NCBI GenBank assembly: GCA_003543135.1
Contig: DPJG01000023.1
Span: 186,001 to 250,000, forward strand
Reading direction: 5' to 3'
DNA length: 64,000 bases
From: Rheinheimera sp.
GTDB lineage: Bacteria > Pseudomonadota > Gammaproteobacteria > Enterobacterales > Alteromonadaceae
Shown here piece after piece: positions 20,409 through 55,095 of the stretch (positions are counted from its first letter, which is position 1; each line of letters starts with the position of its first letter). The notes beneath the pieces were generated by a model, which saw nothing but the letters and a program-made list of their open reading frames with translations, made no database searches and had not been told where the DNA came from. Made by a program: the position numbers and the translations under genes.

Positions 20409-20777
20409 ATGAACTTTAGCAGCGAACTCATTGATAAATTTAAAGAAATAAAAGGCATAAAAACGGATGCAGAAGTTGCTGAATTGATACCGGAGATGAA
20501 CAAAGGGAATTTGAGCAAAATCAGAAAAGGTTCTGAAGGACGGCACTTAAACGAAATGCAAGCGCTATGGATTGCAGAACAATGCAAAATGGATGCAGCA
20601 CTGGTACTGGTAGAACTAGCGGCAGAGTGCGCCAAAACAACCACAGCACAAACTGTATGGCACGACTTAGCAAAAAAGCTACGGGCGACAGCTAAAATAT
20701 TGGTTGTCGCCACAATTCTTATGATTTCAGGCACTTCAGGGCACTATCCGCCCCAACGCATCAAATATATCCCATAA
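20409..20777 (+). CDS. Inovirus repressor-type regulator (DUF3693-like)
   Basis: 122 aa, MNFSSELIDKFKEIKGIKTD, with an N-terminal helix-turn-helix (AEVAELIPEMNKGNLSKIRK), a middle ALWIAEQCKMDAALVLVELA segment and a hydrophobic C-terminal patch. It starts 10 bases after the right operator and is divergent from the early operon, so it should be the lysogeny regulator. The overall layout is the same as the regulator of the tailed prophage at 54522. Its stop codon is formed inside dif-like site B. Confidence 0.75.
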   Translation: MNFSSELIDKFKEIKGIKTDAEVAELIPEMNKGNLSKIRKGSEGRHLNEMQALWIAEQCKMDAALVLVELAAECAKTTTAQTVWHDLAKKLRATAKILVVATILMISGTSGHYPPQRIKYIP

Positions 20778-20794
20778 TGTATATTATGTTAAAT
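20767..20794 (+). other. dif-like attachment site B (inovirus / P2-like prophage junction)
   Basis: XerC-type arm ATATCCCATAA, centre TGTATA, XerD arm TTATGTTAAAT. From the CATAA of the left arm to the right end, all 22 bases equal E. coli dif; only the outer six bases of the XerC arm differ. It is a direct repeat of sites A and C and lies exactly between the last inovirus gene and the first genes of element 2. Confidence 0.85.
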
Positions 20795-20979
20795 GAAATT
20801 ATGCTACTTCTATACCGTACCGCTCCACCTTAGTCTGACATAAATCAAACTGTTCCTCAAACAGAAATTCTATTATTTTACCCCTTACGTTTAATTTTGG
20901 CGGTTTGATGCTGATTTTAAACAGTTTTCTCGAAGCGCGGAAAATTCGTTTTTAATAACCAAATGGAATTTATAAAGTT

Positions 20980-21363
20980 ATGGCAATGCAAATAAAATCT
21001 AAAGAAGATAGCGATTTATTATTCAAAACTGGCTTTTGCAAGACCGTGATCACCAAAACTTCCATAAGGACTGTGCCCGACTTAACCAAAATAGCAGCGT
21101 TTTTTGTGGTGACTGAGCACACCGTAAGGCGCTGGTTACGTGATGGCCTGCCGCCAAAAGTTATTCATCAGCTTAGCATGCTCAGCAACGGCCATCTGTT
21201 GCCACCACCATGGCAACGCGCCCGGTTAACCATTTGCGCTGAAGGCATCATTTTACAAAATGGCCGTATTCTTGACCTGGCATGCATTCAGTTCTGGCCT
21301 TTTATTGCGCCTTACGTTGACTGGGGCCGCGTGCCGGAACTCGTCAGGCAGCGGATAAATTAG
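20980..21363 (+). CDS. Small putative DNA-binding phage protein next to attL, DUF3653/XafT-like
   Basis: 127 aa. A helix-turn-helix-like segment (DLTKIAAFFVVTEHTVRRWL, residues about 34-53) is followed by RDGLPPKVIHQL and a conserved-looking C-terminal half (PPPWQRARLTICAEGIIL, ending VPELVRQRIN). From memory this layout matches DUF3653, a family that I believe includes XafT, the XerD-activating protein of the V. cholerae satellite TLC phage. The gene lies 186 bases inside the dif-like attL and is read away from it. Role as a Xer activator is an inference. Confidence 0.6.
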   Translation: MAMQIKSKEDSDLLFKTGFCKTVITKTSIRTVPDLTKIAAFFVVTEHTVRRWLRDGLPPKVIHQLSMLSNGHLLPPPWQRARLTICAEGIILQNGRILDLACIQFWPFIAPYVDWGRVPELVRQRIN

Positions 21364-21936
21364 CAAACCGCCTGCGATGGCCTTGGCCAAAGCACCCGTT
21401 TTTTATTTCATTTTTAAAATGGGCTATCTCTCTGTTTTATATATCTTTTTTAAATTCTGCTTTTACCGGCCTTGCGTAAAAAAAGCCACGAAATCCACGG
21501 AAAACATAATGGATTGAATGGCTTAGCTTTTTCTGTGCCCTGCCCAAACGCCCTGCAAAACTGAAAAACACTGAAATAAATCTCGATCTTTTCAGATCCT
21601 CGATCCTTGCAAACCTTTAGGAATGGCGCGGTCCAGAGATATGAAATGTAGCGCCAAAAAACTGAAAAAAAAGTCCAAAACACAGCGCGCAGGAGGGTGT
21701 GGAAGAGTCCGGTTTTCGTGGCGGGGTTTTTGCGTGGGCGCTTTTTCCGTGATGCTGCCTGTTTATGTTGTTATCGCGCATAGAATGGCCGTAGCAGGGC
21801 GATCAGCACCCTACTTTGGCCGCATTTCATTTTTTTGGATTGGTGTTGGCGTGTTGGCGTGGTGGCGTACAGTGAGCGTTTTATTTTGATGGCGTACAGC
21901 CACCAGTTTGGTGGCTGCCGTATACAGGTTGGTAAG
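21364..21936. other. Mostly unassigned 570-base stretch
   Basis: It holds no recognised gene. One rightward frame (21623-21889) could encode an 88-residue basic protein with two hydrophobic segments, described separately. A short inverted repeat (AGCCACC with GGTGGCT) lies at about 21899-21917, just past the end of the BRCT gene, without a T run. No further dif-like site is visible here. Confidence 0.4.
21623..21889 (+). CDS. Possible small membrane protein (uncertain)
   Basis: An open frame of 88 codons starting MARSRDMKCSAKKLKKKSKT, with a very basic N-terminus and two hydrophobic stretches (GAFSVMLPVYVVIAH and ISFFWIGVGVLAWW). The ribosome site (AGG two bases before ATG) is poor; ATG at 21641 after AGAG is an alternative. 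It could be a lysogeny-expressed membrane protein or chance. No family recognised. Confidence 0.3.
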   Translation: MARSRDMKCSAKKLKKKSKTQRAGGCGRVRFSWRGFCVGAFSVMLPVYVVIAHRMAVAGRSAPYFGRISFFWIGVGVLAWWRTVSVLF

Positions 21937-22809
21937 TTAACCGGCGTCGATGGCCGCGTGCAGATCTATTTCGTGAATTATCTGGATTGGATGGCCGTTC
22001 TTCTTCAGTTTGATGGCTGCATCAATTTTGCCGCCGTAACTGCCGAACTTCCATTTAGGCTGGCCCTTGTTGCCAATGACCAGGTAGTTGAGTCTGGTGG
22101 TGATATCTTCAGTGACTATGCCGCCAAGGCCGGTGATAACTTTTTTAAATTCCGAACGGCTGTACCTGGATGAAGCGCCGGTAAAACAGAACACGCCAGT
22201 TAAATCTATGTGCGGATTTTTTTCGCACAGGCTGTTGTCGTTCACTGTTGGGTTGGTAATGGTTTTGTCGTCCTGCATTGCAACAAACTCACCAAACAGG
22301 CGCAGCAGTTCTTTTTGTTCCTGTTGGTCGATATGATTGTCTTTCAGCACTTTGGCTATTTTGTTGCTGACTTCATCGTATGGGTAAGAGTTCTCAAGGT
22401 GGCTGTGCTCGGCCAGCCATGCCTCAAGGCCGGATAACTCGGCTTTTGATACAACTGCATCAGCGGCGATACCGGCCAGCATTGTGTGCAGCCTTTGAAT
22501 ATCGGCGGTAATGGTGTTGAAGTATTCGTGTGCCGCCAACGAATTGCAGGTTACTTTAATTAACCGCATCTCGTCTTTTGTAAGCACGCCATCTGAAATC
22601 ACTTCGGCTACCAGTGGAATTAATTTGTCGTAAGGCGGGTTCAATTCGTTGATGCGGTGTTCTTGCATCCAGTTCTCTAAAAACTGAATTTCCTGATCGT
22701 TAATTTCACCATCTATGGTGATGCCTTCAATAAGGCCTAACAGGGAGTTCAGCGATTTTTCAAAATCTGCCTTTCTTTCATAGCGGGAATTGTCTTGCGG
22801 CGAGCTCAT
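21937..22809 (-). CDS. TerB-like / BRCT-domain protein, probable prophage cargo gene
   Basis: 290 aa. The N-terminal about 190 residues consist of repeated acidic helical units (IEGITIDGEINDQEIQFLEN, VISDGVLTKDEMRLI, IAADAVVSKAELSGLE, KDNHIDQQEQKEL) resembling TerB/EF-hand-like modules. The C-terminal about 90 residues form a BRCT domain (VFCFTGASSRYSRSEFKKVI, DITTRLNYLVIGNKG) like that of NAD-dependent DNA ligase. It sits at the end of the late operon, separated by about 100 bases and so probably on its own promoter. This is the usual place for lysogenic-conversion genes. Function unknown. Confidence 0.75.
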   Translation of the reverse strand: MSSPQDNSRYERKADFEKSLNSLLGLIEGITIDGEINDQEIQFLENWMQEHRINELNPPYDKLIPLVAEVISDGVLTKDEMRLIKVTCNSLAAHEYFNTITADIQRLHTMLAGIAADAVVSKAELSGLEAWLAEHSHLENSYPYDEVSNKIAKVLKDNHIDQQEQKELLRLFGEFVAMQDDKTITNPTVNDNSLCEKNPHIDLTGVFCFTGASSRYSRSEFKKVITGLGGIVTEDITTRLNYLVIGNKGQPKWKFGSYGGKIDAAIKLKKNGHPIQIIHEIDLHAAIDAG

Positions 22810-22913: not shown

Positions 22914-23975
22914 CTAAAGCCTTGGCTTGGTGGCGCTGAAAGTAATGTCGCCGTTGAGCGGATAAAATGTTCTGTCTGCCAAGTCTTTGGCCACGCACTG
23001 GTGGTTGTAGTTGCCTGACAGTTCGGCGGTGTCGGTGTCGGTGAGCTGAATTTCTATTTTACCGGCGTTAAAGGCGATACCACTGCCTAACTCTTTTGTG
23101 ATCAGTACCTGGCCGGTGCGGCCGTAAAGCTCATATTTTGCGGCGTTGATGCCTGCCACCTGCTCGTTGTCTATCTGGTGGTCAATCACCAACAATGCAC
23201 TGGCGCCCTGCTTAAAGTTAATTTCCTGCATATAAACCCCGCCGCTTTGTGTGGTTAGTTCAATTTTATGGTTGCTGCGGCTTTGAATGTGGTAGCTGTG
23301 CCGCGTTGATGTTTGGTAATGCTTTTTGGATATGGACCGCGTTTTTATTTGCTGGGTATAAGCAGCGATTTGCAAAACGGTATTTACCCAGCTGCTGCTG
23401 GCAGCGAACGTGGTTGCCGCAGATACCTGGCCCCCACTTTGCCGGTGTTGTTTGTTGGTTTTTGTTACGTGGGCTTGTGCACTAAATACCTGCGCTGCAC
23501 TTGCCGATGTTTGCCGGTGTTGCACATTGCCAAGGTTTACCGTATTTACCCAGCTGGTACTGGCAATAAACCCTGCAACAGATACCACCTGCCCTGTGCT
23601 TTGCCGGTTCTGGCTGTTGCTGGCCGTGGTTTGTGTTGCTTCGGTATAGGCCTGCGCTGCGGTGGCGGTTGTTTGATGCTGTTGGTTGTTGATTAATACG
23701 CTGTTTGCTATAGCCGAAAACGTCTGTAGTGCACCGCCTGCGGTTTGTTGACTCTGGCTGTTAACCGGATCCGATGTAGCTGCGGCACTAAATACCTGGG
23801 CAGCACCGGTGCCGGTGTTTTGTTGCTGGCTGTTGAGTGTTGATGTTGAGGCTACTGCACTGGAAATATTTAATAGACTTGTGCTGCTACTTTTGTTCTG
23901 AACTGCGCTGGCAGATGTGTTATCAGCAACAAACGATGAATAAGGAACCAGCGCAAATGGTTGCAGGCCATACAT
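22914..23975 (-). CDS. Repeat-rich tail-fibre/decoration-type protein
   Basis: 353 aa with a short N-terminal segment (MYGLQPFALVPYSSF), then six or seven degenerate repeats of about 24-34 residues rich in Gln, Ser, Thr and Ala. The repeats recur as NSQQQNTGTGAAQVFSA, NSQSQQTAGGALQTFSA and NNQQHQTTATAAQAY. The C-terminal about 110 residues (from MQEINFKQGASALLVIDHQI) form a globular domain that looks like a small beta-sandwich. As the last gene of the tail operon it probably makes part of the fibre or baseplate surface. No exact family recognised. Confidence 0.6.
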   Translation of the reverse strand: MYGLQPFALVPYSSFVADNTSASAVQNKSSSTSLLNISSAVASTSTLNSQQQNTGTGAAQVFSAAATSDPVNSQSQQTAGGALQTFSAIANSVLINNQQHQTTATAAQAYTEATQTTASNSQNRQSTGQVVSVAGFIASTSWVNTVNLGNVQHRQTSASAAQVFSAQAHVTKTNKQHRQSGGQVSAATTFAASSSWVNTVLQIAAYTQQIKTRSISKKHYQTSTRHSYHIQSRSNHKIELTTQSGGVYMQEINFKQGASALLVIDHQIDNEQVAGINAAKYELYGRTGQVLITKELGSGIAFNAGKIEIQLTDTDTAELSGNYNHQCVAKDLADRTFYPLNGDITFSATKPRL

Positions 23976-23977
23976 GA

Positions 23978-24484
23978 TCAGCCACCAAACTTAATGTCGA
24001 ACAGTTCAGCCAGTCGCTGATAATCTCCAGCATCAGGCAAAGCCTGCACCAATTGCCTTGCCTTATGTCGCAGCCCGACAAAATTCGCGCTTGCGGCCGT
24101 AAATGCGTCGGCATCACGAATTACGCGCTGCGCCAGTTCTGGAACTGTTAGGCCGCGAGTAGCTGCGATAGTGGACAGCATCGGCGTTGGCGCATCAGGT
24201 TTTGCTACTAAGGCTCTGGCCTCTGCCTCCTGTTTGTTCCATGTCTGAATTTCATGCTGCGGCCAGCCAGCGGTAAGGCTGGACACTGCCGATTCAAACG
24301 CTTGATCAATCTCTGCGAACTTGGTTGCTTTTTCTGGCGGCCAAGGATTGTAGTCCGCTATCAGCTGGTTGACTTGATCATCTGGTGCGTTAGCTATCCA
24401 AACACCGTCAACATTTCGCAATTCAATACCTTGCGCTGCCAACATTTGATGCAGGCCATAGCCCTTTTCTATGTACTGAATCAC
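23978..24484 (-). CDS. Tail fibre assembly-type protein
   Basis: 168 aa, MIQYIEKGYGLHQMLAAQGI. It has the segment YNPWPPEKATKFAEIDQAFE followed by a helical C-terminal half (LRHKARQLVQALPDAGDYQR). Short helical proteins with this arrangement accompany receptor-binding fibres in many myophages. Its start overlaps the stop of the preceding fibre gene (ATGA), which links it to that protein as a chaperone or partner. Confidence 0.55.
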   Translation of the reverse strand: MIQYIEKGYGLHQMLAAQGIELRNVDGVWIANAPDDQVNQLIADYNPWPPEKATKFAEIDQAFESAVSSLTAGWPQHEIQTWNKQEAEARALVAKPDAPTPMLSTIAATRGLTVPELAQRVIRDADAFTAASANFVGLRHKARQLVQALPDAGDYQRLAELFDIKFGG

Positions 24485-25344
24485 AGAAATGCTCCTGTAA
24501 ATAAAATTCTTGGGGCTGCGTTGTTGGCGTTCGCGTCACCATTAACAAAGTTAACGCTTGACGGCAGACCATCAACCGCAGTTGTCAGCCCCGTTTTATA
24601 AAACCCCTGAACAGGTATTGCTTGGTTGCTGGACAGCCCCGCAAAAGCGAAATCAAAACCGACGTTCTGTCCACGAATGGATGGGGTTCCGTTACAAACA
24701 AAAGCTGTGAAATATAATCCTGCCCCCAACTTCAAACTCGCAGTTAACTGCTTTTCCCCTGTTGTTGATGTGTCTATCTCGCCAAAATCTTGCATAAGGT
24801 TGGCTGTGTGCGTGGTGTCCACTTGTGTGATTTGATATATCCCAAGACGCGCTTTGCTTGATGCTGCCGCGGTGTTCACGTTCAATAACACTGATTCTGT
24901 TAAAAACGGGCGTTTTGACAAAAATGGGATTAAAACAAGCCTGTTAGCAACAGATGTATGGGCAACGCTATTATTGAAAAAGAACCCACTACCTGCATAC
25001 CCACCTCCAGTTCTAAGCTTTGGCAGTATTTCCGAACCAGCATCGGTTGGAACCATCACCAGTTTTTCACCGGCCGGAAAGTTGATCAGCGCTGTTGTGC
25101 CTAATGAGTTATCAGTTACAAGCTCCCTTACCAATGCAGCAGCGCCGGACAAATAACCGACGCCCTTTTCCCAATTTCCAAGCTTGTCTTGGATCATGTA
25201 AGGAAAGCGGTGGTTTAGTCCGTAAAAGCTGTTGAACGTCCTATTGCCAGTAATGAAACTATCCGGCACAGACCATGCGCCAGCCAGCGTTAAATCACCA
25301 GCACCAGCAGTGGTACTGGTTTCTGCGATTTTATTAGCACTCAT
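24481..25344 (-). CDS. Tail fibre / receptor-binding protein
   Basis: 287 aa, N-terminus MSANKIAETSTTAGAGDLTL, a segment WSVPDSFITGNRTFNSFYGL, and a long beta-rich C-terminal region with many Gly, Asn and Thr. NKIAETSTT-type N-termini are common in fibre and structural proteins of tailed phages. The position downstream of the baseplate genes supports a host-recognition role. Confidence 0.6.
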   Translation of the reverse strand: MSANKIAETSTTAGAGDLTLAGAWSVPDSFITGNRTFNSFYGLNHRFPYMIQDKLGNWEKGVGYLSGAAALVRELVTDNSLGTTALINFPAGEKLVMVPTDAGSEILPKLRTGGGYAGSGFFFNNSVAHTSVANRLVLIPFLSKRPFLTESVLLNVNTAAASSKARLGIYQITQVDTTHTANLMQDFGEIDTSTTGEKQLTASLKLGAGLYFTAFVCNGTPSIRGQNVGFDFAFAGLSSNQAIPVQGFYKTGLTTAVDGLPSSVNFVNGDANANNAAPRILFTGAFL

Positions 25345-25367
25345 GAAGCTACCTTAACCTGTTGGCT

Positions 25368-25739
25368 TTACGGATTATCCCGGATCAGTTTTGTGGTGGC
25401 GGCATTCACGGTAAAGCTGCGCTCGGTGGCAACGCCGGTGAAGTTAAACGGCTCGTCCGGCACGATATAACCCAGATAAGTGGCGTTTTCCCAAAGCCCG
25501 ATAAATTGCACGTTTTGATTGATGGACAGATGCAGTGGAAATACAACATCGGCGTTTAGTGCAGATTCTGCTGCTGTGCCGTTTGCTGTTGGTGCATTAA
25601 ATACGCAGTCTTGTCTGGCGTATGGTGCGTCAGCCAATTCACCAGCGGCCGGATTTGCTCCGGTGCCCGGGTTGGTTGCGTGCAGCGACATTTTGTTTGC
25701 TGCGTTAATTGCTTTGCTGTTGCCTGCAAAATTAAACAT
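25368..25739 (-). CDS. Small phage tail-fibre-associated structural protein
   Basis: 123 aa, MFNFAGNSKAINAANKMSLH, with the segments MSLHATNPGT, YARQDCVFNAP and IGLWENATYLG. Their order matches a family of small fibre-tip proteins in tailed phages (substrate or host contact suspected). It lies between the hub and the receptor-binding gene, with gaps of about 25 bases on each side. Confidence 0.6.
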   Translation of the reverse strand: MFNFAGNSKAINAANKMSLHATNPGTGANPAAGELADAPYARQDCVFNAPTANGTAAESALNADVVFPLHLSINQNVQFIGLWENATYLGYIVPDEPFNFTGVATERSFTVNAATTKLIRDNP

Positions 25740-25767
25740 GGTGGTACCCTCTTGTTCGGTCTGATGT

Positions 25768-27393
25768 TTAGGTAGCGACTATCGGCTGCAGCGTATTGTG
25801 CAGGTTGGTTGCATCCGTTTTTCGGCTTGTCATGTCTGCGGCAATGTCCGGCGCGTTTGACATGGTTGAACCGACTAAATGTTTGTGTTTGGCGCAGTGG
25901 TCGGCCAGCTGTGATACGCACTGCATTAGCTGGTCCAGCAGGTTGTAGATGTTGACGGTATCGGTGCCTGCCCAGTGCGTTTCTGCTTCAAACCGCTGCA
26001 GCTCTTCGGCCACTGAGTGGCGTAATTTGCCTATGGTTTCTGTTAACTCGCCTGCTATTGCAAGCCGCGTGTTACCCAACGCACCCAGTGTCAAATCGTC
26101 ACCGGCCAGCACATCAACTGCGCCCAGGGCTTCGATTACCTTTTTGCCGGCAACCTCTTCAATGGAATGCTGCTGCACTTTGGTATGCATAGAACCGGCT
26201 TCTATGTCGTACTGGTCGGCATTTGTGATTTTGTGGTAAGCGCTGTGCTGTTGCTGCTGATCTGTGCTGCTGTTTTGATTGCCTGCGGTGTCGGTGCGCT
26301 GATAAACCCCGGCGCGTTGTTGCTGTAGCTGCTCGCCTGGCTCTATGGCCGGTAGCGTAAAACCTGTGCCCAACACTGTGCGGATAAATGGCTTGTCGGC
26401 GCGGCCATAAGCAAAACCAATTTCTACAATGGCGCCCTCTAACGGGTATTGCAGCAAGCCCTGCTCTGTGCCTGCAAACATTACCGGCAACGAAATGGCT
26501 TTATAAACCGGCACTGCGGTATCTGGCTGGCTGTTTTCGTCCAGCAACTGCACATCCACTGCGTAACGTGGCCGGAACGTGTTGTTAATGTCGCCTGCTG
26601 CAGCACTGTCAGATATGGCTACAACACAGCCAAAGCGTGGCAAGTGATACCCGCCGGCCAGCTCCGGAAAAGCGGCTTTTACCTGGCGTTCCAGCTGGTT
26701 GTTGTCGGCTGCATTGGTTGCCCATGTAATGGTCATGGTGTCGCCTGCCAGCTCCACCTGATTGATGCGATTTTTGTTCACCAGCGCACCCGGGCGCATG
26801 GCTGGCATGGCCAGTAACTTCCAGTTGTTGTTGCTTTGCTGCTGGCTTAATTCGTGCGGAATTTCTACCGGCCGTGTTGCCCAGCGGCATTGCTGATAGC
26901 CGCCTACATAAATTTGGCCGTCTTGTTGCTGATACCAAACGCCGTCTGGCACCGCAAAGGCGCGAAACAGGTTATTCAGTAGCTGATAACCGGTGCCTTG
27001 TGAGGTGAAATTGGCAATCGGGGTGTCTGTGTATGCTTGCCCCTCTGGAATAACAAAACTCAGGCCGGTGTCTTCAGCAAGTTTGGTGATGACCTGGCGC
27101 ATAGTGGCGTGACGGATTGACACGGGGTAACGCTCGGCCAGTATTCCGGCAAGTTCCCGCACCATAATTTTGTTGGTGCCCTTGCCTGCTGGCGTTACTT
27201 TGGCAACATAACCTGTGAAGTAGCGCACCAGCTGATTGTTGTAGCCGATATCGAGGCTTATCAGTTGCCCTTTGCTGACGTCGCCTTTAACGGTAAGAAT
27301 GCCCCGACCGCCGGCTGACAGTTCCAGCACAATATGGTGTGCCACTAATTCGGTTTGCTGGCTGCCAATGGTCAGGCGTTTGGTTAACTTCAT
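25768..27393 (-). CDS. Baseplate hub and spike protein (gpD/VgrG-like with gpV-type region)
   Basis: 541 aa. The N-terminal about 250 residues resemble the gpD/gp27 hub (LISLDIGYNNQLVRYFTGYV, VRELAGILAERYP, RQVITKLAEDTGLSF). An OB-fold-like region follows (LLQYPLEGAIVEIGFAYGR, KPFIRTVLGTG), then a Gln-rich stretch and a region like the stalk of gp5/VgrG spikes. It appears to combine the D (hub) and V (spike) functions that P2 keeps in two genes. The C-terminal helices end in KHKHLVGST and TLQPIVAT. It overlaps the preceding gene (ATGA). Confidence 0.75.
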   Translation of the reverse strand: MKLTKRLTIGSQQTELVAHHIVLELSAGGRGILTVKGDVSKGQLISLDIGYNNQLVRYFTGYVAKVTPAGKGTNKIMVRELAGILAERYPVSIRHATMRQVITKLAEDTGLSFVIPEGQAYTDTPIANFTSQGTGYQLLNNLFRAFAVPDGVWYQQQDGQIYVGGYQQCRWATRPVEIPHELSQQQSNNNWKLLAMPAMRPGALVNKNRINQVELAGDTMTITWATNAADNNQLERQVKAAFPELAGGYHLPRFGCVVAISDSAAAGDINNTFRPRYAVDVQLLDENSQPDTAVPVYKAISLPVMFAGTEQGLLQYPLEGAIVEIGFAYGRADKPFIRTVLGTGFTLPAIEPGEQLQQQRAGVYQRTDTAGNQNSSTDQQQQHSAYHKITNADQYDIEAGSMHTKVQQHSIEEVAGKKVIEALGAVDVLAGDDLTLGALGNTRLAIAGELTETIGKLRHSVAEELQRFEAETHWAGTDTVNIYNLLDQLMQCVSQLADHCAKHKHLVGSTMSNAPDIAADMTSRKTDATNLHNTLQPIVAT

Positions 27394-27959
27394 GCCTGCA
27401 CCTGCTCTGCCGGTGCTCCTATGGCGTTGTCGATGTTTTTCAGGAATTTTTCAATCGACGACATTTCCACCTGTGGCGGTGCCTGTTCGCTGATGGCGGC
27501 TGTTGGGATCACACTGGCTGTTTGATCACTGGTTTGGGCTGTACTGGCGGCTGCTTTTGGCTGGCGCTGCTCGGTTACTTCCGGCACGCTTAAATGTTCG
27601 CGCAGTGAAAAACTGACCTGCCAAGCCATCAGTGTTTGATGTTCTGGCGCCGATACCGTGCCGTGAAACTTTACCTGCCTGATTTTTACGGTGCGGCCAA
27701 TGGTGGCACCCAGGCGGCGCACTACTCTGTTGCCGCTGCTATCTTTGGCGCTTGCCAGTTCAAACAACCGGGCTAACTGGGCGGCGTCGGTAAATGGAAT
27801 AAGTCCAGTAATGCGCAGCTCTTTTGCCTTGTCGCCCTGCTCGCTGCTGCCGGTGGCTGATGTTTGGCCGGACATATCCTGATCGGCAAGCTGCATGCTC
27901 AGTTCCATTTTGCAGCTTTTTAAGTTAATCAATTCACCGTCTAAGGCTATTTGGCTCAT
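27390..27959 (-). CDS. Baseplate-complex protein
   Basis: 189 aa, MSQIALDGELINLKSCKMEL; the conserved-looking core is ELRITGLIPFTDAAQLARLF and VKIRQVKFHGTVSAPEHQ. A Pro/Thr/Ala-rich linker and a short helical C-terminus (SIEKFLKNIDNAIG) follow. Coupled by ATGA overlaps to both neighbours in the hub cluster. It takes the place of gpU-type tail completion proteins but does not look like P2 U. Confidence 0.5.
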   Translation of the reverse strand: MSQIALDGELINLKSCKMELSMQLADQDMSGQTSATGSSEQGDKAKELRITGLIPFTDAAQLARLFELASAKDSSGNRVVRRLGATIGRTVKIRQVKFHGTVSAPEHQTLMAWQVSFSLREHLSVPEVTEQRQPKAAASTAQTSDQTASVIPTAAISEQAPPQVEMSSIEKFLKNIDNAIGAPAEQVQA

Positions 27960-29268: not shown

Positions 29269-29277
29269 GGTGACCCC

Positions 29278-29739: not shown

Positions 29740-29742
29740 GTT

Positions 29743-30207: not shown

Positions 30208-30209
30208 AA

Positions 30210-38907: not shown

Positions 38908-38919
38908 TTTCAGCCCCTC

Positions 38920-44108: not shown

Positions 44109-44161
44109 AGTTAACCCAACCTTTGCAGACAATACACTAACTGTATTGTGTCAGTTAACCC
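44109..44161. promoter_or_regulatory. Inverted and direct repeats in the O/P divergent promoter region
   Basis: An inverted repeat ACAATAC, seven-base spacer, GTATTGT (44129-44149) is flanked by two copies of AGTTAACCC (44109-44117 and 44153-44161). It lies between the divergent late genes O and P. A binding site for the phage zinc-finger late activator is plausible; P2 Ogr sites are also imperfect dyads about 55 bases upstream of late starts. Confidence 0.5.
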
Positions 44162-44178
44162 GGCAATTTTCCGCATTT

Positions 44179-47378: not shown

Positions 47379-47385
47379 TAAATCC

Positions 47386-48050: not shown

Positions 48051-48065
48051 GAGTACCTCTCTTAA

Positions 48066-50102
48066 TCAGCGACTGGCTACCATCGCCGCAATAATGGCTT
48101 TCACTTCACTTGATAGCTTGTTGTTTGGCCTGTTGGTGTCAGCACCTGGGGCCACCAAATCAGGCTTTGTCTTCCGTCGACGCACTACAAAATTTACCCT
48201 TTGGCTTGGGTGCTGCGGTTCTGGTACTTGTTGCAGGCTGCCGTAGCGCATTTTCCAGCGCTGGCCGTCGATGTTGACCGTATAGCCCCGCTTCAACAGG
48301 GCTATTGCTTCCGGCCCAATCCCGTGAAGATGGGATTTTGGCGGCAGGCTTGGCGTTTGGTCGTGATTTCCGGCCTCATGGGACCCCGTACAGTTAACGC
48401 CACTAGTCCAAGATTGTCTGGCTGCGCCAGACTTAAGAGCGTTACGCCGCATTTCCCATTTGTGCGGACGGGTTAGCGCGAAGCCTTTTCCGGCTTCAAT
48501 GCCGGTTATTCGTTTGACTGCCTCGCCATATTCATTGCCGTATGGCGTAACCTCGTATTTTATTTCTGTGGTCATGGTTCGCAGCGCTCTGATGAAGTTT
48601 ACAAAGTCATTGCTGTCTGCTGCCAAGCGCAATTGTTCCAACTCGTTTTGATGCTCTTCAGTAAAAGCTTCACGCACCCGGCGGATTTCTCGGTATGACG
48701 TAATTGGGTCACAACCTTGGAATTGAAATTGGCGGATGTTCCAGACACTGGCCCACGTTTTAACATTCATCACGCCATCGCCCAGCGTTTTACCGGTTTC
48801 GCTGTCAATCAGATCAGCAACTTCAAAACCGTTGATGTTTTTAGAAATGTATTTGGCAATGTAAGCAGCTGCGCTGCCTTTGCTTGGGTCGATGTATTCA
48901 GCGTCAAACCGCGGCTGAAATGGGTAGTGGAATTTGCGCGGTGCGCTTACTTTTTTGCCTTGTGATTTTTCGTAACCCCATAACTGGCGCGCTTTACGGT
49001 AAGCCTTTCGCAGTGATTTACGCTTTTTAAAACGCGCCATTAATTCGCCAATTTCCTCCTGGCAAAAATACCAGCGGATGCAGCGGCAAATGGCTTTTAA
49101 ATCTTTCGCTGGTGCGAACAGCATCATGTGCCAGTGTGGCGTGCCGTCCTGGTGTGGCTCTGATACCCGTACACCAAAATACTTGGCATCCATCCGTTTC
49201 AGCTTTGCCCTTGCCTTCGCCCATGTATCCACCATGTAAGCGTTGGTTTCTTTTGGGCTGCTGCCATTCCAGTTGGCACTGTTTGCGTGAAACTTTGACG
49301 GCGCAGTAACGGTAATAAACACCGCTGCAAAGCCGATTTCTTCCGCGTACTCTTCAATGCCGCGAATTCGTTTCATCAGCTCAGCCCGGGCGTTTTCTGG
49401 GTTTGCGGTACTGGCTTCAATGGCGTTGATCAGCGCTAATTCGTCGCCGCACTCATTAATCAGGGTTAACGATTCTGCCCAGCGGCGCTGCGCTGCTTTG
49501 TCACGGACAAATTCCGCAACGGCGCGTTTGCTGGCATAGGCGCTAACGCCTTTACCCACATTGCCCTGAATAATTTCTAAAATTTCCAAATGCTGCTGGC
49601 GCAGCCTGAGCAACTTTCGGCGCCACCACTTAGGGCACTGCAAACGCAGCAAAGCGCACTCTTTGGCTAATGTGTCTGTTTCCATGCCCCACAGTGGCGG
49701 CGTTACGTGCGGCAGCCGGTTTAAACTCTGGTTGCAAACAATGTCGTAAACCGCGTGCACTCTGGTTTCGTGGTCTTCATCACCGGTTAAACCTTCTGCT
49801 GCGGTAATCATGTCCTGAAAACATTGCAGGGCTAAATCGTCAGCCAGTTTTTTGGTGCGGTCTTTTTGGTTAATAACCTTGGCCGGAATTTTAAACTGCT
49901 GCAAATAAGTCATTTTGCGCCCGTACTGCTGGCGCTTTTTGCTGGCTGCTTTGCGAAAAGCACGGTTATTTTCTGGCGTTGGGTTGTCTTTTGCGGCCTG
50001 CGCTAATGGCCACAGGCTGGCTGCCATTGGTTTTGGCAGGCCGCGCAGCATCTTGGTTACAAAGCGGTTTTGGTCACGGTTCAGGGCTGGGTTTAAATAC
50101 AT
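48066..50102 (-). CDS. Replication endonuclease gpA (HUH, rolling circle)
   Basis: 678 aa P2 A family. The HUH metal motif is GTPHWHMMLFAP (His323, His325) and the twin active tyrosines are in AAAYIAKYISKN (Tyr414 and Tyr418, four apart). The N-terminal 200 residues are helical and basic. It nicks the phage origin, which in P2 lies inside gene A. It is the last gene of the leftward early operon before the activator. Confidence 0.92.
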   Translation of the reverse strand: MYLNPALNRDQNRFVTKMLRGLPKPMAASLWPLAQAAKDNPTPENNRAFRKAASKKRQQYGRKMTYLQQFKIPAKVINQKDRTKKLADDLALQCFQDMITAAEGLTGDEDHETRVHAVYDIVCNQSLNRLPHVTPPLWGMETDTLAKECALLRLQCPKWWRRKLLRLRQQHLEILEIIQGNVGKGVSAYASKRAVAEFVRDKAAQRRWAESLTLINECGDELALINAIEASTANPENARAELMKRIRGIEEYAEEIGFAAVFITVTAPSKFHANSANWNGSSPKETNAYMVDTWAKARAKLKRMDAKYFGVRVSEPHQDGTPHWHMMLFAPAKDLKAICRCIRWYFCQEEIGELMARFKKRKSLRKAYRKARQLWGYEKSQGKKVSAPRKFHYPFQPRFDAEYIDPSKGSAAAYIAKYISKNINGFEVADLIDSETGKTLGDGVMNVKTWASVWNIRQFQFQGCDPITSYREIRRVREAFTEEHQNELEQLRLAADSNDFVNFIRALRTMTTEIKYEVTPYGNEYGEAVKRITGIEAGKGFALTRPHKWEMRRNALKSGAARQSWTSGVNCTGSHEAGNHDQTPSLPPKSHLHGIGPEAIALLKRGYTVNIDGQRWKMRYGSLQQVPEPQHPSQRVNFVVRRRKTKPDLVAPGADTNRPNNKLSSEVKAIIAAMVASR

Positions 50103-50239
50103 GGACAGATCACCGACTTAATCAAACTACCTAATACAAAAACAGAAATACTGGCGCAAACGCATAAAACCACGACAGTGATCAAAGCTCTGGTCAGTTT
50201 CAGACCCGGGCATCGACCAGTGGCGTGGCCTCTGTTCAT
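50093..50239 (-). CDS. Small membrane protein upstream of gpA
   Basis: 48 aa: a basic N-terminus MNRGHATGRCPGLKLTRALI and one membrane helix (TVVVLCVCASISVFVLGSLI). Its ATG overlaps the stop codon of the preceding gene (ATGA), and its end overlaps the start of gpA by 10 bases. Such coupling on both sides supports translation. Function unknown. Confidence 0.55.
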   Translation of the reverse strand: MNRGHATGRCPGLKLTRALITVVVLCVCASISVFVLGSLIKSVICPCI

Positions 50240-50634
50240 TGCGGAATATCCTCGTCGTACTGCTCTTGGCGTTGCATTTGGCTCATTTTGGCCAGCTCAA
50301 TATTGATCAGCGCCTGAATAGCCACTGCGGCAACCTGTGTTATTTCAGATTCAACTGAGTTCCGGCCTGTGCTGTTTTTCATCCAGCCGTCGATTGCTTC
50401 TTTGAGTTCCGATTGCAGGACAAGTAAATGCCCTTCAACTGACTGCTGACGGATATGTTGTTCGCCCCATTTGCAGCTCTGGTAATTCATTTCACAGACT
50501 ACGCGCCCTATGACCTGGCCAATCACTAGATTTCCTGTCTCACTCTGCAAACCAACAACAACCGCTGACGGTTGATTTCCCTTTGCAAAGATACTGCTTT
50601 CATAAGGCGGTATTGGGAGGCTATTTCTTGTCAT
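50236..50634 (-). CDS. Hypothetical early phage protein
   Basis: The start at 50634, overlapping the methylase stop (ATGA), gives 132 aa: MTRNSLPIPPYESSIFAKGN, a core VVGLQSETGNLVIGQVIGRV, and a helical C-terminal half (EITQVAAVAIQALINIELAK). No family recognised. Part of the early operon between the methylase and gpA. Confidence 0.6.
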   Translation of the reverse strand: MTRNSLPIPPYESSIFAKGNQPSAVVVGLQSETGNLVIGQVIGRVVCEMNYQSCKWGEQHIRQQSVEGHLLVLQSELKEAIDGWMKNSTGRNSVESEITQVAAVAIQALINIELAKMSQMQRQEQYDEDIPQ

Positions 50635-52271
50635 GCCGCACGCTCCTGCTGGTCTTTGCAAAGCTCCGGCAAGTTGGCGCGAACCAATGCTTCTGCCAGT
50701 GGTGGTGGAACTGAGTTTCCACAGCGTCCGACCTGTGCCGTTTTAGTCATGGCCTTGCCTGATGCGTCCCGGTCGATGATGTAGTCATCCGGAAAGCCTT
50801 GAGCTTTGAACAGCTCATGTGGCTGCAGCATCCGCATGCCGATGTCTACAATCACATGGTCAACGCCGTTAACCGTTACCAGGCCAAATCTGTCTCGGCC
50901 AGTGATGGTGTGCAGCGGGTCTTGCAGTTCGCATCCGTCCTGCTCGTTGCCGTAATACCTCAGCAAAAATGCCCGAACCTCGCCGACATGATTGCCGCCT
51001 GCGGTTACCGTTGGCATCGGCTCAGTCACTGGCTGACCGTCTTGGCAGGTACCGCGCAGCTTTACCAGGTGACTGGTAACCAGTGCGTTATGATCAACAG
51101 AGGTGACTGTGGGCAGTGGGTCCGTAACATCTGCGCCCGGGCCGGAGTAATTTCCGCCGTAGTGCTTCGCCAGAAACGCAGCCACCAGCTGAGACTTTCC
51201 GCCACCGCCTGCGGTAATTGTTGCGCTCGGCTCGTCTGCGCGATGGCCAATGGATTTGCCGAACTGCCGAGCAATGACTGGCGCGACTACAGCAAAGTGG
51301 CCGCCTTTCACCTGAGCGCAGATGGTACGCAGAGGTTCATCCGCTGGCATGTTGCGTTGATTACTGGCGTTGGCGTGCTCTGTGATGAATGGAGTGAACT
51401 GCCCTTCTACAATGAACGGTTTTTCTGCCTCAATGACATAACGCACCAGGCCTTTTGCTATCCGCTTCATGGTGGCATCAGCCAGCGGCTTTTTGCGGCC
51501 GAAAATGCTTTGGCATGGAATAGACCAGTCAATGCATTCCGCAGCTGTGCGGTATGGTTTCAACAGGCCGGCTTTGACCTCTTTGCTATCCGGCTTTCCG
51601 TGTGTTGGTGCTGGCCAAACAATCGGCCGGCCGTCACAACGCGCAACCATAAATAGACGCTTGCGGATAGTCGGTGCGCCATAGTCACAGGCCCGCAGTT
51701 CCCGCCATTCTACTTTGTAGCCCAGCCCTTTAATCAGCGGCGCCGGGTCTGTAATGCCCAGCACTTCGCAGCACTCGGCCAAAGCAGGGTGATCTGCGGC
51801 AATGCCGGTGCTCAGGATTGCCACGAATGCTTTGAAGGTTTCGCCTTTGCGGTCAGGACATGGAAAGTGATTGCCTTCTTCATCTGCAACCAGAGGCCCC
51901 CACGTTTGGTACTCTTCGACGTTTTCCAACATCAGCGCTTTCGGTTTGGTCATTAATACCCAGCGCACAGCAATCCAGCCAAGGCCACGGATAAACTTGC
52001 TTACCGGCTTTGCGCCTTTGGCTTTGCTAAAATGAGTGCAGTCCGGTGACAGCCAACAAAGGTCAACTGCCCGTCCAGCTGTGGCTTGCAATGGGTCCAC
52101 GTCAAACACTGATTCGCAATAGTGAAAGGTGTCCGGGTGATTGGCTTTATGCATGGCAATTGCGCTTGGGTCATGGTTGATGGCTATATCAACTGATCTG
52201 CCAATTGCCATTTCAATACCAGTGGATGCGCCGCCACCGCCGGCGAAATTATCAATTATCAAGCCTCTCAT
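50631..52271 (-). CDS. DNA (cytosine-5) methyltransferase, phage type
   Basis: 546 aa. SAM motif FAGGGGASTG at residues 9-18, motif IV SPDCTHFSKAKG with the catalytic Cys78 (Pro-Asp-Cys instead of the usual Pro-Pro-Cys), motif VI LENVEEYQ near 115, and C-terminal motifs GRCGNSVPPPLAEALVRANL. No restriction gene is adjacent, so it is an orphan methylase. It probably protects phage DNA from host restriction or marks it for regulation. The long middle holds the target-recognition region. Confidence 0.88.
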   Translation of the reverse strand: MRGLIIDNFAGGGGASTGIEMAIGRSVDIAINHDPSAIAMHKANHPDTFHYCESVFDVDPLQATAGRAVDLCWLSPDCTHFSKAKGAKPVSKFIRGLGWIAVRWVLMTKPKALMLENVEEYQTWGPLVADEEGNHFPCPDRKGETFKAFVAILSTGIAADHPALAECCEVLGITDPAPLIKGLGYKVEWRELRACDYGAPTIRKRLFMVARCDGRPIVWPAPTHGKPDSKEVKAGLLKPYRTAAECIDWSIPCQSIFGRKKPLADATMKRIAKGLVRYVIEAEKPFIVEGQFTPFITEHANASNQRNMPADEPLRTICAQVKGGHFAVVAPVIARQFGKSIGHRADEPSATITAGGGGKSQLVAAFLAKHYGGNYSGPGADVTDPLPTVTSVDHNALVTSHLVKLRGTCQDGQPVTEPMPTVTAGGNHVGEVRAFLLRYYGNEQDGCELQDPLHTITGRDRFGLVTVNGVDHVIVDIGMRMLQPHELFKAQGFPDDYIIDRDASGKAMTKTAQVGRCGNSVPPPLAEALVRANLPELCKDQQERAA

Positions 52272-52849
52272 ACTGCACCGCCTTGCACTTCAGCAAATTC
52301 ACGCGACCAATAGCCGACTTCTAATACCTGGGTCTTTTTCTTGCGTGCGGCCAGTTCGGCCAGTGTTTTTTGCAGCTTTTTACCGTCGTTGTGGCGGCAA
52401 AACTTTGTGGCACCAGCAAGGCACCATGCTGTGTGAACCCGGCCATTTTCAATGCCGATAAAATAGCGGTCTTTGATTTTGATAACGTGACCGGCCACAT
52501 TAAGAGCGCCTGGGTACGTTTCCTCTAAAACTGCATCGCCACGCTGAATAACAGTGTCGTTGGCTGTCACGTTCTGGGCTTCAAACTTCGCGCGTGGCCA
52601 GTGAATTGCAACATCTGGCCACCTGATCATTTCGATAAAATCACCAGGGAATACCTGATAGGCTAAAAACTCAATGTTCCGAATAAACTTTACGGAACCC
52701 TTGTCCGTTTTTAAAACGCCAAATCTTTCGTCGTCACAATCAATTATCTGATCAGACTCTTTTACCTCGTAGGCCACACGGGTTTTGTGCTTTGGCGTAT
52801 ACGGCTTAAAAGTGCTTAAAAATTCGTTTACCTGATCACAAGTTCTCAT
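52268..52849 (-). CDS. Hypothetical early phage protein
   Basis: ATG 52849 overlaps the exonuclease stop (ATGA) and gives 193 aa: MRTCDQVNEFLSTFKPYTPK, AYQVFPGDFIEMIRWPDVAI, VAGHVIKIKDRYFIGIENGR and TAWCLAGATKFCRHNDGKKL. Beta-rich. The C-terminus overlaps the methylase start. No family recognised. Confidence 0.6.
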   Translation of the reverse strand: MRTCDQVNEFLSTFKPYTPKHKTRVAYEVKESDQIIDCDDERFGVLKTDKGSVKFIRNIEFLAYQVFPGDFIEMIRWPDVAIHWPRAKFEAQNVTANDTVIQRGDAVLEETYPGALNVAGHVIKIKDRYFIGIENGRVHTAWCLAGATKFCRHNDGKKLQKTLAELAARKKKTQVLEVGYWSREFAEVQGGAV

Positions 52850-53421
52850 GCTGCACCACCACATTTTGCGGCCAGTGCCTGATAGATATGGCTTACATAC
52901 GTCGCCTGATGCTTTGCATCGGCTAAAGCGTTGTGTGCAGTGCCAACAAATGGAAAGTCATATTTCGGGTCTATTTGAAGTAACTCACGACCCAGCGCAA
53001 CAATGGTTCTTACATCGCGCTCGTTGGCATAACGCCACGGCAGATTGATGGCGCAGCGCCGGTAGGCGTTGTCTACAATTGCGCAGTCGAAACTTGAGCC
53101 ATTACCCCAAATTTCAACGTGTTTGGTGGCTGTGGTGTTTTCTTTAATCCACAGGTAAAAATCGTTCAGCGCTAAAGCAATATGCGTTGCATTAGGGCAA
53201 TTCAGCACGGCGCGTGCTTCTTCGCTTTGTTCGCTCCACCATTTCAGCGTGCTTGCATCAACTTCAAGGCCAATGGTTTCACAGCTATCCTGCCGAATGG
53301 TTTTATAAAATTCGTTACCCAGCTCACCTGTTGCCGGGTTAAAAAACACAGCACCAATGCTGATGATTGCGGCGTTTTTGCTGGTGCCCAGCGTTTCAAT
53401 ATCAAGCATTACATTGTTCAT
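52846..53421 (-). CDS. 3'-5' exonuclease, DnaQ-like (Rv2179c type)
   Basis: 191 aa: MLDIETLGTSKNAAIISIGA (first Asp-x-Glu metal site), TLKWWSEQSEEARAVLN, WGNGSSFDCAIVDNAYRRC and TAHNALADAKHQATYVSHI (third metal site). This is the DEDDh-type group common in phages as exonuclease VIII-like or 3'-5' exoribonuclease genes. Likely role in phage DNA or RNA metabolism. Confidence 0.85.
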   Translation of the reverse strand: MNNVMLDIETLGTSKNAAIISIGAVFFNPATGELGNEFYKTIRQDSCETIGLEVDASTLKWWSEQSEEARAVLNCPNATHIALALNDFYLWIKENTTATKHVEIWGNGSSFDCAIVDNAYRRCAINLPWRYANERDVRTIVALGRELLQIDPKYDFPFVGTAHNALADAKHQATYVSHIYQALAAKCGGAA

Positions 53422-53720
53422 ACCATCACCCCTTCTGCAGCAACATCAGCAACCATATTCAGCAAAACTATTTGTTCATCGGCGGCAATGCCGGTTACAT
53501 ACCAGTCATCTACCGCGTGGTACTCCACAAAAAATACTGAGTCGTCCGGTTCGTCTATTACGCAATCTGCTGGGTCAACAATAACGCCGTAAACCAGATC
53601 AACAGAGCCGTCACCCAGTACGCAGCTGGTGGCTACACACTGGCAGCCATGTAGTTTTTCTATGCCGAATTTTTCAATGGCCTGACGGCCGGTAATTGGT
53701 AAACCTGAAATCATGCTCAT
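53418..53720 (-). CDS. Hypothetical early phage protein
   Basis: 100 aa, acidic: MSMISGLPITGRQAIEKFGI, LHGCQCVATSCVLGDGSVDL, DEPDDSVFFVEYHAVDDWYV. Overlaps both neighbours by ATGA. No family recognised. The acidic character would suit a DNA-mimic or inhibitor, but nothing else supports that. Confidence 0.55.
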   Translation of the reverse strand: MSMISGLPITGRQAIEKFGIEKLHGCQCVATSCVLGDGSVDLVYGVIVDPADCVIDEPDDSVFFVEYHAVDDWYVTGIAADEQIVLLNMVADVAAEGVMV

Positions 53721-53956
53721 GCTGGCAGCCTCCGTCCGTGGCGGTTTCTTACAAAACGCTCAATGCGAGCGTTACTAATTCTTGTGGCAACTTCCTGCAC
53801 GTTCTCGCTGGCGTAGTGCAACATTAGAATTGGCGTTTTAGCGGCATGCAGCCATTTTGCCTCGTCGGCTTTTGGCATGCGGCTGGCCTGAATAAGCAAC
53901 AGGTCTTGTGTCCACAGCAGCGCAACGGCCGCCCTATTTGTGTGCATTGTTTTCAT
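53717..53956 (-). CDS. Hypothetical early phage protein
   Basis: 79 aa: MKTMHTNRAAVALLWTQDLL, a central HAAKTPILMLHYASENVQ and a basic C-terminus RIERFVRNRHGRRLPA. ATGA overlaps on both sides. No family recognised. Confidence 0.55.
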   Translation of the reverse strand: MKTMHTNRAAVALLWTQDLLLIQASRMPKADEAKWLHAAKTPILMLHYASENVQEVATRISNARIERFVRNRHGRRLPA

Positions 53957-54243
53957 AATTGCGGCAGCCCCATCAGTCGGTTTGCATAGACAGGACGCGC
54001 AGTGGCGGGTGCTTTTGGCTTGGTTAATTTGGCGCGGATTTTGTCGAGGTGGGTAGCGTTAAGCTGCGCTTGCTGCTGGTCTATCACGCTGAGTTTTGCG
54101 GACGACTTCAGCCAGGCAATGTCTGTTTGAATGCTTTTTAAAGCTACGGGGTCTTTGGTGGCGTTTTCGGCCATTGTTTCTAAAAGAGCTAATTGCGCTT
54201 TCAGATGAGGTTCATTTTCGGAAAGTACTGTATGTATATCCAT
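53953..54243 (-). CDS. First gene of the leftward early operon, unknown function
   Basis: 96 aa, mostly helical: MDIHTVLSENEPHLKAQLAL, LKSIQTDIAWLKSSAKLSVI and a basic Pro-rich tail (KAPATARPVYANR). AGGAG precedes the ATG. Its position matches cox in P2-like phages, but no helix-turn-helix or Cox-like sequence is visible. Confidence 0.55.
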   Translation of the reverse strand: MDIHTVLSENEPHLKAQLALLETMAENATKDPVALKSIQTDIAWLKSSAKLSVIDQQQAQLNATHLDKIRAKLTKPKAPATARPVYANRLMGLPQL

Positions 54244-54291
54244 GTATGGATACTCCTGTGCAATTTTGTTTTACCGCCCTATCTCCGACCC

Positions 54292-54343
54292 CTACAGTCG
54301 GTGGCCGCCATCAAACCGGAGAAATCTGATGGCGGCCGTAGGG
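54292..54343. promoter_or_regulatory. Large inverted repeat in the lysogeny control region
   Basis: GGCCGCCATCA at 54303-54313 pairs perfectly with TGATGGCGGCC at 54327-54337. Outer arms CCCTAC and GTAGGG continue the pairing after a seven-base bulge on one side. It lies in the leader between the early operon and the repressor. No T run follows, so it may be an attenuator, an antisense or leader RNA fold, or a protein site. Confidence 0.6.
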
Positions 54344-54368
54344 AGTTGTGCACCAGTTTTCGGAAAGG

Positions 54369-54517
54369 TTTTGTTCTTGGGGGAACGCCAATCGGTAGAA
54401 CCAGAGCACGGAATGAAGGCTAACTTGATGCGTCGAGCTAAGCAAATGCACCGTGTTAGTTGAGTGCGTTTGGTTAATTGCCTAAACTTCACGGTGAATT
54501 TTGTTCTTGGGGGAACG
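54369..54517. repeat. Two 19-bp direct repeats, candidate repressor operators
   Basis: TTTTGTTCTTGGGGGAACG occurs at 54369-54387 and again at 54499-54517. Each contains an inverted GTTC...GAAC core. The second copy covers the ribosome-binding site (GGGGGAA) of the repressor gene, so binding there could couple repression to autoregulation. Confidence 0.7.
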
Positions 54518-54521
54518 TAAA

Positions 54522-54830
54522 TTGAAAACTGTTGATTACATCGACGCGCTCAAAGCTGCGTATTCATTAGCTTCTGACTATGCTGTTGCCAAAAAACTTG
54601 GCGAAAGCACCTCTAGACTTAGCACTTACCGTTCAGGCACCTGTGTGATGAATGATGAAATGGCTATAAAAATTGCCTATCTACTCGACCTAAATCCTTT
54701 ACAGGTGCTGGCTGACGCCCACATTGAGTACGAAATGAAGCGTGGCAGCAATTCCATGGTAATTTTCTGGGAAGAGGTAAAGAAGTCGGGGAAAATGGAC
54801 GTCAAAGTGCTGACAAAGATGGTGGCATGA
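54522..54830 (+). CDS. Phage repressor-type regulator (DUF3693-like)
   Basis: TTG 54522, after GGGGGAA, gives 102 aa; an upstream TTG at 54501 lies inside the operator repeat. The N-terminal helix-turn-helix is YAVAKKLGESTSRLSTYRSG, followed by AIKIAYLLDLNPLQVLADAH and WEEVKKSGKMDVKVLTKMVA. It is divergent from the early operon and is the only repressor-like gene in element 2. The layout is the same as the inovirus regulator at 20409, although the two phages are unrelated. Confidence 0.75.
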   Translation: MKTVDYIDALKAAYSLASDYAVAKKLGESTSRLSTYRSGTCVMNDEMAIKIAYLLDLNPLQVLADAHIEYEMKRGSNSMVIFWEEVKKSGKMDVKVLTKMVA

Positions 54831-55095
54831 TGGCTATTTTTTGTGCTGCTTTTAAATGGGCAAAATGTACGTTTTGCCCTCCCCTAAAATCAGCTACAAG
54901 CCTGATTATTAAAGGGTTTTAATATAATCTACATTTCCTAAACTGTATATTATGTTAAATATGATATTTTAATATTTAGAAACGTTATACACATTACCTA
55001 TCGTCTCGTCTTTCAATAATTCGCTGCCACTGCGGCCAACTACGCTGCTGCTTGCTTTTAAATACTGTTTGCTGCAGTTGGCTGATTTTATTCTG
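54831..55095. other. attR end of the P2-like prophage and host junction
   Basis: No gene is seen. A hairpin (GGGCAAAA at 54858-54865 with TTTTGCCC at 54872-54879) is the likely end of the repressor transcript. An AT-rich stretch then leads into site C. HP1- and P2-like phages usually carry their integrase between repressor and att; here only about 100 bases separate them. After site C comes host DNA up to the DUF1543 gene. Confidence 0.6.
54933..54960 (+). other. dif-like attachment site C (right end of the P2-like prophage)
   Basis: XerC-side arm ATTTCCTAAAC (poor match), centre TGTATA and XerD arm TTATGTTAAAT (both perfect). If crossover is within the site, the left arm came from the phage attP and the right arm from host dif. 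It is in the same orientation as sites A and B and marks the return to chromosomal genes. Confidence 0.8.

Follow-up and report, generated by a model that had tools for sequence, protein, structure and literature searches.

The 64,000-nucleotide stretch analyzed in this study (positions 186,001 to 250,000 of contig DPJG01000023.1, Rheinheimera sp. assembly GCA_003543135.1; hereafter the window) contained a prophage at positions 20767–54960 that lay between two dif-like sites. A Pfam scan of 44 of its open reading frames (ORFs) identified a P2/HP1-type gene set. The proteins above the Pfam cut-offs were gpO, gpN (Phage_cap_P2), terminase, gpL, gpR, gpS, the sheath DUF2586, the HP1 Orf24 tube, tape measure, gpJ, tail fibre, HP1_ORF34, Ogr and gpA, while the matches of portal, gpI and a Gp49-like toxin were below their own cut-offs. 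Head, tail, lysis and replication genes were all represented. As judged by gene content, the prophage is complete-looking, as stated in the original prediction, and a contractile tail is predicted from its sheath gene. It possessed the P2-type capsid, scaffold, terminase, tail and gpA genes of Peduoviridae, but not an own tyrosine integrase, which is usual though not formally defining for this family. The double-jelly-roll P2-type coat protein of Corticoviridae and PM2-like phages was not found in the 44 ORFs.

No integrase, resolvase or transposase family scored above its cut-off in the 44 ORFs (one extra 88-residue ORF was scanned against NCBIfam only), in agreement with the integrase-less element originally described. 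The antitoxin-like ORF at 47073–47456 had sub-threshold matches to a resolvase-type helix-turn-helix (HTH; E = 0.067) and to DDE_Tnp_1_assoc (E = 0.015). Similarly, no recognisable integrase was found between the early genes (50236–54492), the regulator HTH_R and the right attachment site attR. The 12 Phage_integrase (PF00589) matches of the host genome were all on contigs other than that of the element. Four of these 12 proteins were scanned with NCBIfam, of which one scored above the cut-off for XerD, another above that for XerC and the remaining two above that for integron integrases. The latter two are L010 and L011 (G000:C2 and G000:C34).

Both ends of the prophage are direct-repeat, dif-like sites with a perfect TGTATA centre and XerD arm, as first proposed. 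The 17-base sequence TGTATATTATGTTAAAT, which comprises the centre and the XerD arm, had two copies on the 387,235-base contig, and both were ends of the element, which ruled out a chance origin of the two ends. The 11-base XerD arm by itself is no evidence, because its frequency in the 3.99-Mb genome (four places) matches that of the reversed-pattern control (five). Among these four places, the 17-mer was found within two mismatches at the two ends of the element only. A loose pattern allowing up to 3 mismatches identified the same two sites in the window, where 0.18 were expected, and two sites were reached in 2 of 100 shuffles. GC skew was positive in 10 of 10 20-kb blocks on the left and negative in 8 of 8 blocks on the right. 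The FtsK-orienting polar sequence (KOPS), which we take to be GGGNAGGG, occurred 8 times in forward and 0 times in reverse orientation left of the elements and 0 and 3 times, respectively, on the right. For the looser GGNAGGG, the counts were 31 forward and 6 reverse on the left and 2 and 23 on the right. Because GC skew and KOPS polarity flip there, the element ends are the dif of the chromosome, and by these sequence features the integration site is the chromosomal dif.

In a congeneric genome (G019), the same flanks were joined at an unoccupied dif, the empty site that the original prediction had suggested looking for. The potassium/proton antiporter of G019 was 95% identical to that of the window, and the window's left flank up to 13742 (90% identity) and right flank from 54933 (89%) met at this dif, whose form is that of the left attachment site, attL. 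At the corresponding place, dif was present in G012 too. An exact XerD arm was found no more than 1.5 kb downstream of the antiporter orthologue in 12 of 18 loci of the genus and was absent there in five; the window's own antiporter locus had an XerD arm with one mismatch within 1.5 kb. Across loci L071–L088, the polarity of dif relative to the antiporter differed between Rheinheimera species, the centre being TGTATA where dif had one orientation and either TGATTA or TTATTA where it had the opposite one.

Further copies of the phage were also located at dif. In Rheinheimera mesophila (G009), a related phage lay between the same host genes but inverted, and the dif was inverted likewise. Its two ends sit on two contigs, the centre was TTATTA at both junctions, and the order from the host XerC arm and P0002-type gene to the regulator and phage XerC arm was kept (P0002 and HTH_R are the HTH proteins encoded beside the XerD and XerC sides of the attP, respectively). 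The IMG/VR records G181 (33.8 kb) and G178 (33.1 kb) are whole dif-to-dif copies with the same arm order. In addition, G179 and G147 had one host-arm junction apiece, G148 started exactly at the core, and the regulator-side junction was present in G182. Three centre variants, TGTATA, TGATTA and TTATTA, were found across the phage copies, and the centres agreed within a copy wherever both junctions were known (window, G009, G181 and G178). Where relatives were at a dif of another polarity or centre, the polarity and centre of the phage matched that dif.

These copies bear on two other explanations of the locus. If the phage encoded its own, unrecognised recombinase among its unknown proteins, this enzyme might target dif. 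Several early and end genes are indeed without a family, two tailed phages beside a dif core (L302 and L308) match PF00589 weakly, and integrases are regularly encoded by the tailless prophages that occupy dif in Vibrio, as described in a part of PMC11630473. However, no catalytic family was found in the 44 ORFs, the att-flanking HTH proteins of 109–170 residues are small for a tyrosine recombinase, and the sites track the host dif through three centre variants, as XerC/XerD action predicts. An own recombinase is thus considered unlikely. Passive trapping between dif-like repeats, either by homologous recombination or through carriage by a neighbouring Xer element, would fit the inovirus directly left of the element, the inovirus genes adjoining the G147 and G178 copies and the unidentified element with a DUF3693-type gene adjoining G182. 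It is very improbable, given that host genes are beside the dif junctions in the G181, G179 and R. mesophila copies and that the sequence shared at the junctions is 17–21 bases (window and G009), which is too short for ordinary homologous recombination.

Portal relatives numbered 80, and the 48 on contigs of at least 20 kb were tested for PF00589 and the XerD arm. PF00589 was present in 34 of the 48, none of which had an exact XerD arm, whereas six of the 14 without PF00589 had one (one-sided 3003/12271512 = 2.4e-4, calculated by hand and ignoring kinship). The reversed-pattern control of the XerD arm matched 2 of the 48 records. The seven nearest portal records (99 to 81% identity) were without PF00589, while G183, also 81% identical, has it. 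The R. mesophila phage is represented among the portal relatives by G180 (89% portal identity, 21.6 kb), which is without its dif end. Seven relatives without PF00589 each had a dif core, six by the XerD-arm scan and that of R. mesophila by its junctions. In the portal tree (51 rows), the eight dif phages formed one clade nested inside integrase-bearing phages, with a Shimodaira–Hasegawa-like approximate likelihood ratio test (SH-aLRT) value of 95, and one change was needed versus a shuffled mean of 7.7. Trees were built by a quick method with SH-aLRT only, and G180 was left out of the portal tree as a duplicate. These results support loss of the integrase as the probable history of this clade. 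They also bear on whether the element is a defective prophage whose integrase was deleted after integration and whose dif ends are incidental. Integrase-bearing relatives do surround the clade, but seven further relatives without a PF00589 match (R. mesophila on a partial record) each have a dif core, and exact dif-to-dif copies exist in the window, G178 and G181, as well as across two contigs in R. mesophila. A defective prophage is therefore very unlikely.

Thus, the element is very probably a temperate tailed phage of the P2/HP1 type that has no integrase and uses the host XerC and XerD to enter dif. As such, it would be an integrative mobile element exploiting Xer (IMEX) whose virion is tailed. 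It is integrated exactly at the chromosomal dif, a dif-like attP can be deduced from its two junctions, its host possesses XerC and XerD, both over the NCBIfam cut-offs, and it has no site-specific recombinase of its own as far as families are recognised. The sites, gene content, lack of a recognisable recombinase, empty site, recurrence in a clade, polarity and matching centres are apparent from the sequences, and XerC and XerD are the probable catalysts of integration. In its circular form, the genome would have a single attP in which the XerC arm is degenerate, the centre equals that of the host dif and the XerD arm is perfect. Recombination of attP with dif would leave a degenerate site on the right, while the left junction would be a complete dif that combines the XerC arm of the host with the XerD arm of the phage. 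Because the XerD arm is the intact one, XerD is proposed to cut first, with the assistance of an activator. The HTH protein by attP, P0002 here and the P0008 type elsewhere, would activate or direct the reaction, the regulator encoded across attP from it would be the repressor, and the lysogeny cassette might have been swapped with tailless PM2-like phages that also occupy dif.

Several results weigh against integration by the host Xer system in this clade. Neither PF00589 nor the XerD arm was found in seven of the 48 relatives, some of whose contigs are fragments, and because of these seven the absence of PF00589 alone proves little. The PF00589 test of the R. mesophila copy covered the 21.6-kb record G180 only. 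Moreover, the junction of an excised attP had 0 matches in viral contigs when searched with one exact attP pattern, which fits near-identical phages only. Finally, two changes were needed in the capsid tree (50 rows), as the capsid of R. mesophila is placed apart from those of the other dif phages. The proposal that the phage had given up int was supported by the single clade of the portal tree but not by a single change on the capsid tree.

The genes flanking attP, which the original prediction did not cover, were further compared. HTH_R was at the XerC side of attP in the copies of the window, G009, G178, G179, G181 and G182, and the G147 and G148 records stop short of it. Its resemblance to RstR was at E = 0.094 only. 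HTH_R is a candidate lysogeny repressor. At the XerD side of attP, P0002 was found in the window, G147, G148, G009 and G181, and its place was taken by a 170-residue protein, P0008/P0009, in G178 and G179. The G182 record is without the XerD-side phage end, but in the element adjoining this phage, a relative of P0008 (47%) is encoded next to the following XerD arm. P0002 may function as an Xer activation or directionality factor. P0008 was related to P0011, the true PF12375 (DUF3653) protein of G026 (BLASTP, 4e-11), and to P0010 of the P0002 family (2e-10). In addition, P0002 touched phrog_23834 at E = 0.0033, which P0008 matched at 3.8e-33. The hhalign probabilities were 95.6% between the P0002 family and P0008/P0009, 96.5% between P0008/P0009 and a DUF3653 set, and 90.7% between the P0002 family and the DUF3653 set. 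PF12375 had no match to P0004, P0005 or P0008–P0010. By the Pfam definition, P0002 is not a DUF3653 protein, and the two are linked by profile and BLAST chains only. The DUF3653 gene of G026 is ~100 bases from a perfect dif. Of the 98 genomes examined for the family and the 369 for the class, 1 and 3, respectively, had DUF3653, numbers too small for statistics. A scan of genome contigs with the P0002 family matched R. mesophila only, and P0002 had no match among named phages. A BRCT-domain protein was also conserved near one att end in several members of the clade (Table 1).

The regulator and att site link the tailed clade to PM2-like tailless phages. The dif elements in G008 (broken by a contig end) and G056 are PM2-like by their double-jelly-roll P2-type coat protein, and both carry gpA-type replication proteins. 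Perfect dif cores form the exact borders of the 12.8-kb element of G056 (L054/L055, G056:C7:30307-43153), which encodes an HTH regulator at one border and a phrog_18872 protein at the opposite one. P0008 matches this PHROG too. The identity of HTH_R was 76% with the regulator encoded by the PM2-like element in G008, 69–74% with those of other tailed members and 46% with that of G181. Moreover, the att XerC arm of the G008 element is that of the tailed R. mesophila phage. Among named phages, HTH_R matched 14 records, all of Vibrio, and P0008 matched 11, all NO16-like (E = 3e-4 to 1e-3). The circular genome of the corticovirus fNo16 has, in this order, an HTH regulator, a dif-like site and a DUF3653-like gene. 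The fNo16 gene L351 959-1390 (MH730557.1 3558-3989), annotated as an S-adenosylhomocysteine hydrolase, is by eye of the HTH/DUF3653 type and adjoins the dif-like site. The presumptive dif of PM2, as printed in the part of PMC9966536 consulted, has an intact XerD arm.

An att cassette may therefore have been exchanged between the tailed clade and PM2-like tailless phages at dif. On the sequences compared, this link indicates no direction of transfer, and the att type varies among tailless phages. With confidence slightly short of even, we propose that tailed phages switched to Xer by acquiring a cassette, composed of the regulator, a dif-like attP and an XerD-activating HTH/DUF3653-like protein, from PM2-like phages of another realm, which founded a clade whose lysogeny is run by Xer and perhaps bypasses FtsK. 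Other results speak against such a cassette or the role assigned to P0002. In fNo16, the best-described of the tailless phages, inspection of the reverse strand by eye indicated that the dif-like site has retained the side of XerC instead of that of XerD, and an XerD arm with one mismatch was not found at this site. The tailless PQ189348 has an HTH_R relative, but its left end is without an XerD arm or DUF3653-like gene. P0002 did not match PF12375 even at E = 10, and the hhalign links are single comparisons that partly reflect HTH signal, without an unrelated-HTH control. The AlphaFold model of P0002 was weak (predicted local distance difference test score 67), with no match in the PDB at E = 0.001 or better, and XafT, to which P0002 is likened below, presumably belongs to DUF3653.

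Table 1. Features of the prophage, its attachment sites and the adjacent element (window positions)
Feature	Position	Strand	Basis or remark
Third, imperfect dif-like site	13698-13727		Left end of inovirus
Separate inovirus prophage (Zot-family, G5P, G2P, DUF3693 regulator)	13698..20777	.	Between third dif-like site and attL
attL, full dif: host-type XerC arm ATATCCCATAA, centre TGTATA, XerD arm TTATGTTAAAT	20767..20794	+	XerD arm is the putative phage-derived half
P0002, 127-residue HTH protein	20980..21363	+	Beside XerD side of attP; distantly DUF3653-like
BRCT-domain protein	21937..22809	-	phrog_3989; kept near same att end in G148, G179, G181
Baseplate, fibre and tail genes; several ORFs without assignment	22914..35382	-	Pfam
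HP1_ORF34	27390-27959	-	Pfam
Tail fibre	30210-31025	-	Pfam
gpI-like	31025-31609	-	Pfam, below cut-off
gpJ	31606-32793	-	Pfam
Tape measure	33118-35382	-	Pfam
Pesticin-type lysozyme, HP1-type tube, sheath, gpS, gpR, gpL, small terminase, major capsid gpN, scaffold gpO	36120..43979	-	Pfam
Terminase ATPase gpP and portal gpQ	44146..47015	+	Pfam (portal below cut-off)
Toxin-antitoxin-like pair (Gp49-like; HI1420-type antidote)	47073..47682	-	Pfam (Gp49-like below cut-off)
Ogr/Delta late activator and gpA rolling-circle replication protein	47802..50102	-	Pfam
Early genes: C5 cytosine methylase, exonuclease, small proteins without family	50236..54492	-	Pfam, PHROG
HTH_R, 109-residue regulator	54501..54830	+	Beside XerC side of attP, divergent from early genes; phrog_4441/638
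attR: degenerate phage XerC arm ATTTCCTAAAC, centre TGTATA, XerD arm TTATGTTAAAT	54933..54960	+

The inovirus and the tailed prophage of the window form a tandem of two Xer-type elements. The direct repeat bounding the inovirus of G178 (L200/L201, G178:C1:33893 and 43026) extends at least 19 bases past the XerD arm. An exact-core scan of viral contigs was evaluated for 80 of at least 120 loci, and PF00589 was tested on 17 of the 80 contigs and found in three of the 17. Three contigs among the matches listed were at least 30 kb (L307, L302 and L308). In L307, the core is inside an ORF of a tailed phage that by eye is apparently unrelated. L302 (11171) and L308 (1496) are tailed phages next to a perfect dif core with a weak PF00589 match. 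The lysis and baseplate genes of L302 are common to prophages of 3 of 5426 Escherichia coli genomes, and neither L302 nor L308 had a match among named phages.

Exploitation of Xer has been described for filamentous, satellite, tailless and single-stranded DNA phages as well as for genomic islands. The Xer strategy itself is thus already known from IMEX, but a tailed phage using it was not met in the open-licence literature searched, in line with the original prediction, which knew of no well-described example; subscription journals or preprints could hold one. If true, a clade of double-stranded DNA tailed phages would extend Xer exploitation to the largest phage group. This raises the questions of how FtsK-driven resolution by XerCD is evaded by an element of 34 kb located next to dif, whether an att with an intact XerD arm and a degenerate XerC arm reflects an XerD-first reaction, and whether lysogeny modules cross virus realms. 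Moreover, elements of this kind may be misjudged where the search for prophages relies on integrases.

The nearest named phages, of the P2/HP1-type Peduoviridae, are the Pseudoalteromonas phages C5a (Catalunyavirus) and vB_Psp_PY3 and the Vibrio phage ZF14_PE001. They have the same head, tail and replication gene set, and the capsid and terminase of C5a are 66 and 78% identical to those of the element. Different from the dif clade, which has no recognised integrase and sits at dif, C5a, PY3 and ZF14_PE001 each encode an integrase. With the PM2/NO16-like phages (Corticoviridae, 'Asemoviridae'), the clade shares a small regulator beside a dif-like site, accompanied in G056 and fNo16 by a gene that is P0008-related or DUF3653-like. 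These phages are, however, small and have a double-jelly-roll coat; fNo16 keeps the XerC side, and PQ189348 shares the regulator only. XafT of TLC activates XerD, according to a section of PMC9765430. As an HTH protein that is distantly DUF3653-like and encoded beside attP, P0002 is a candidate functional counterpart of XafT; the likeness runs via DUF3653 and not the XafT sequence, and P0002 differs from DUF3653 as defined in having no PF12375 match. Similar to the element, the IMEX of Vibrio and Neisseria (CTX, VGJ, TLC and the gonococcal genetic island, GGI) have a dif-like attP, use XerC/XerD at dif and possess no recombinase of their own. According to part of PMC5357621, it is the XerC side that is retained in the sites of TLC and GGI, their XerD side being divergent, and CTX is also similar to the XerC side; a 'TLC/GGI-type' label for the attP of the element was dropped for this reason. 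With its perfect XerD arm and diverged XerC arm, this attP is opposite to those of TLC and GGI, a contrast not drawn in the original prediction, and none of CTX, VGJ, TLC and GGI is a tailed phage.

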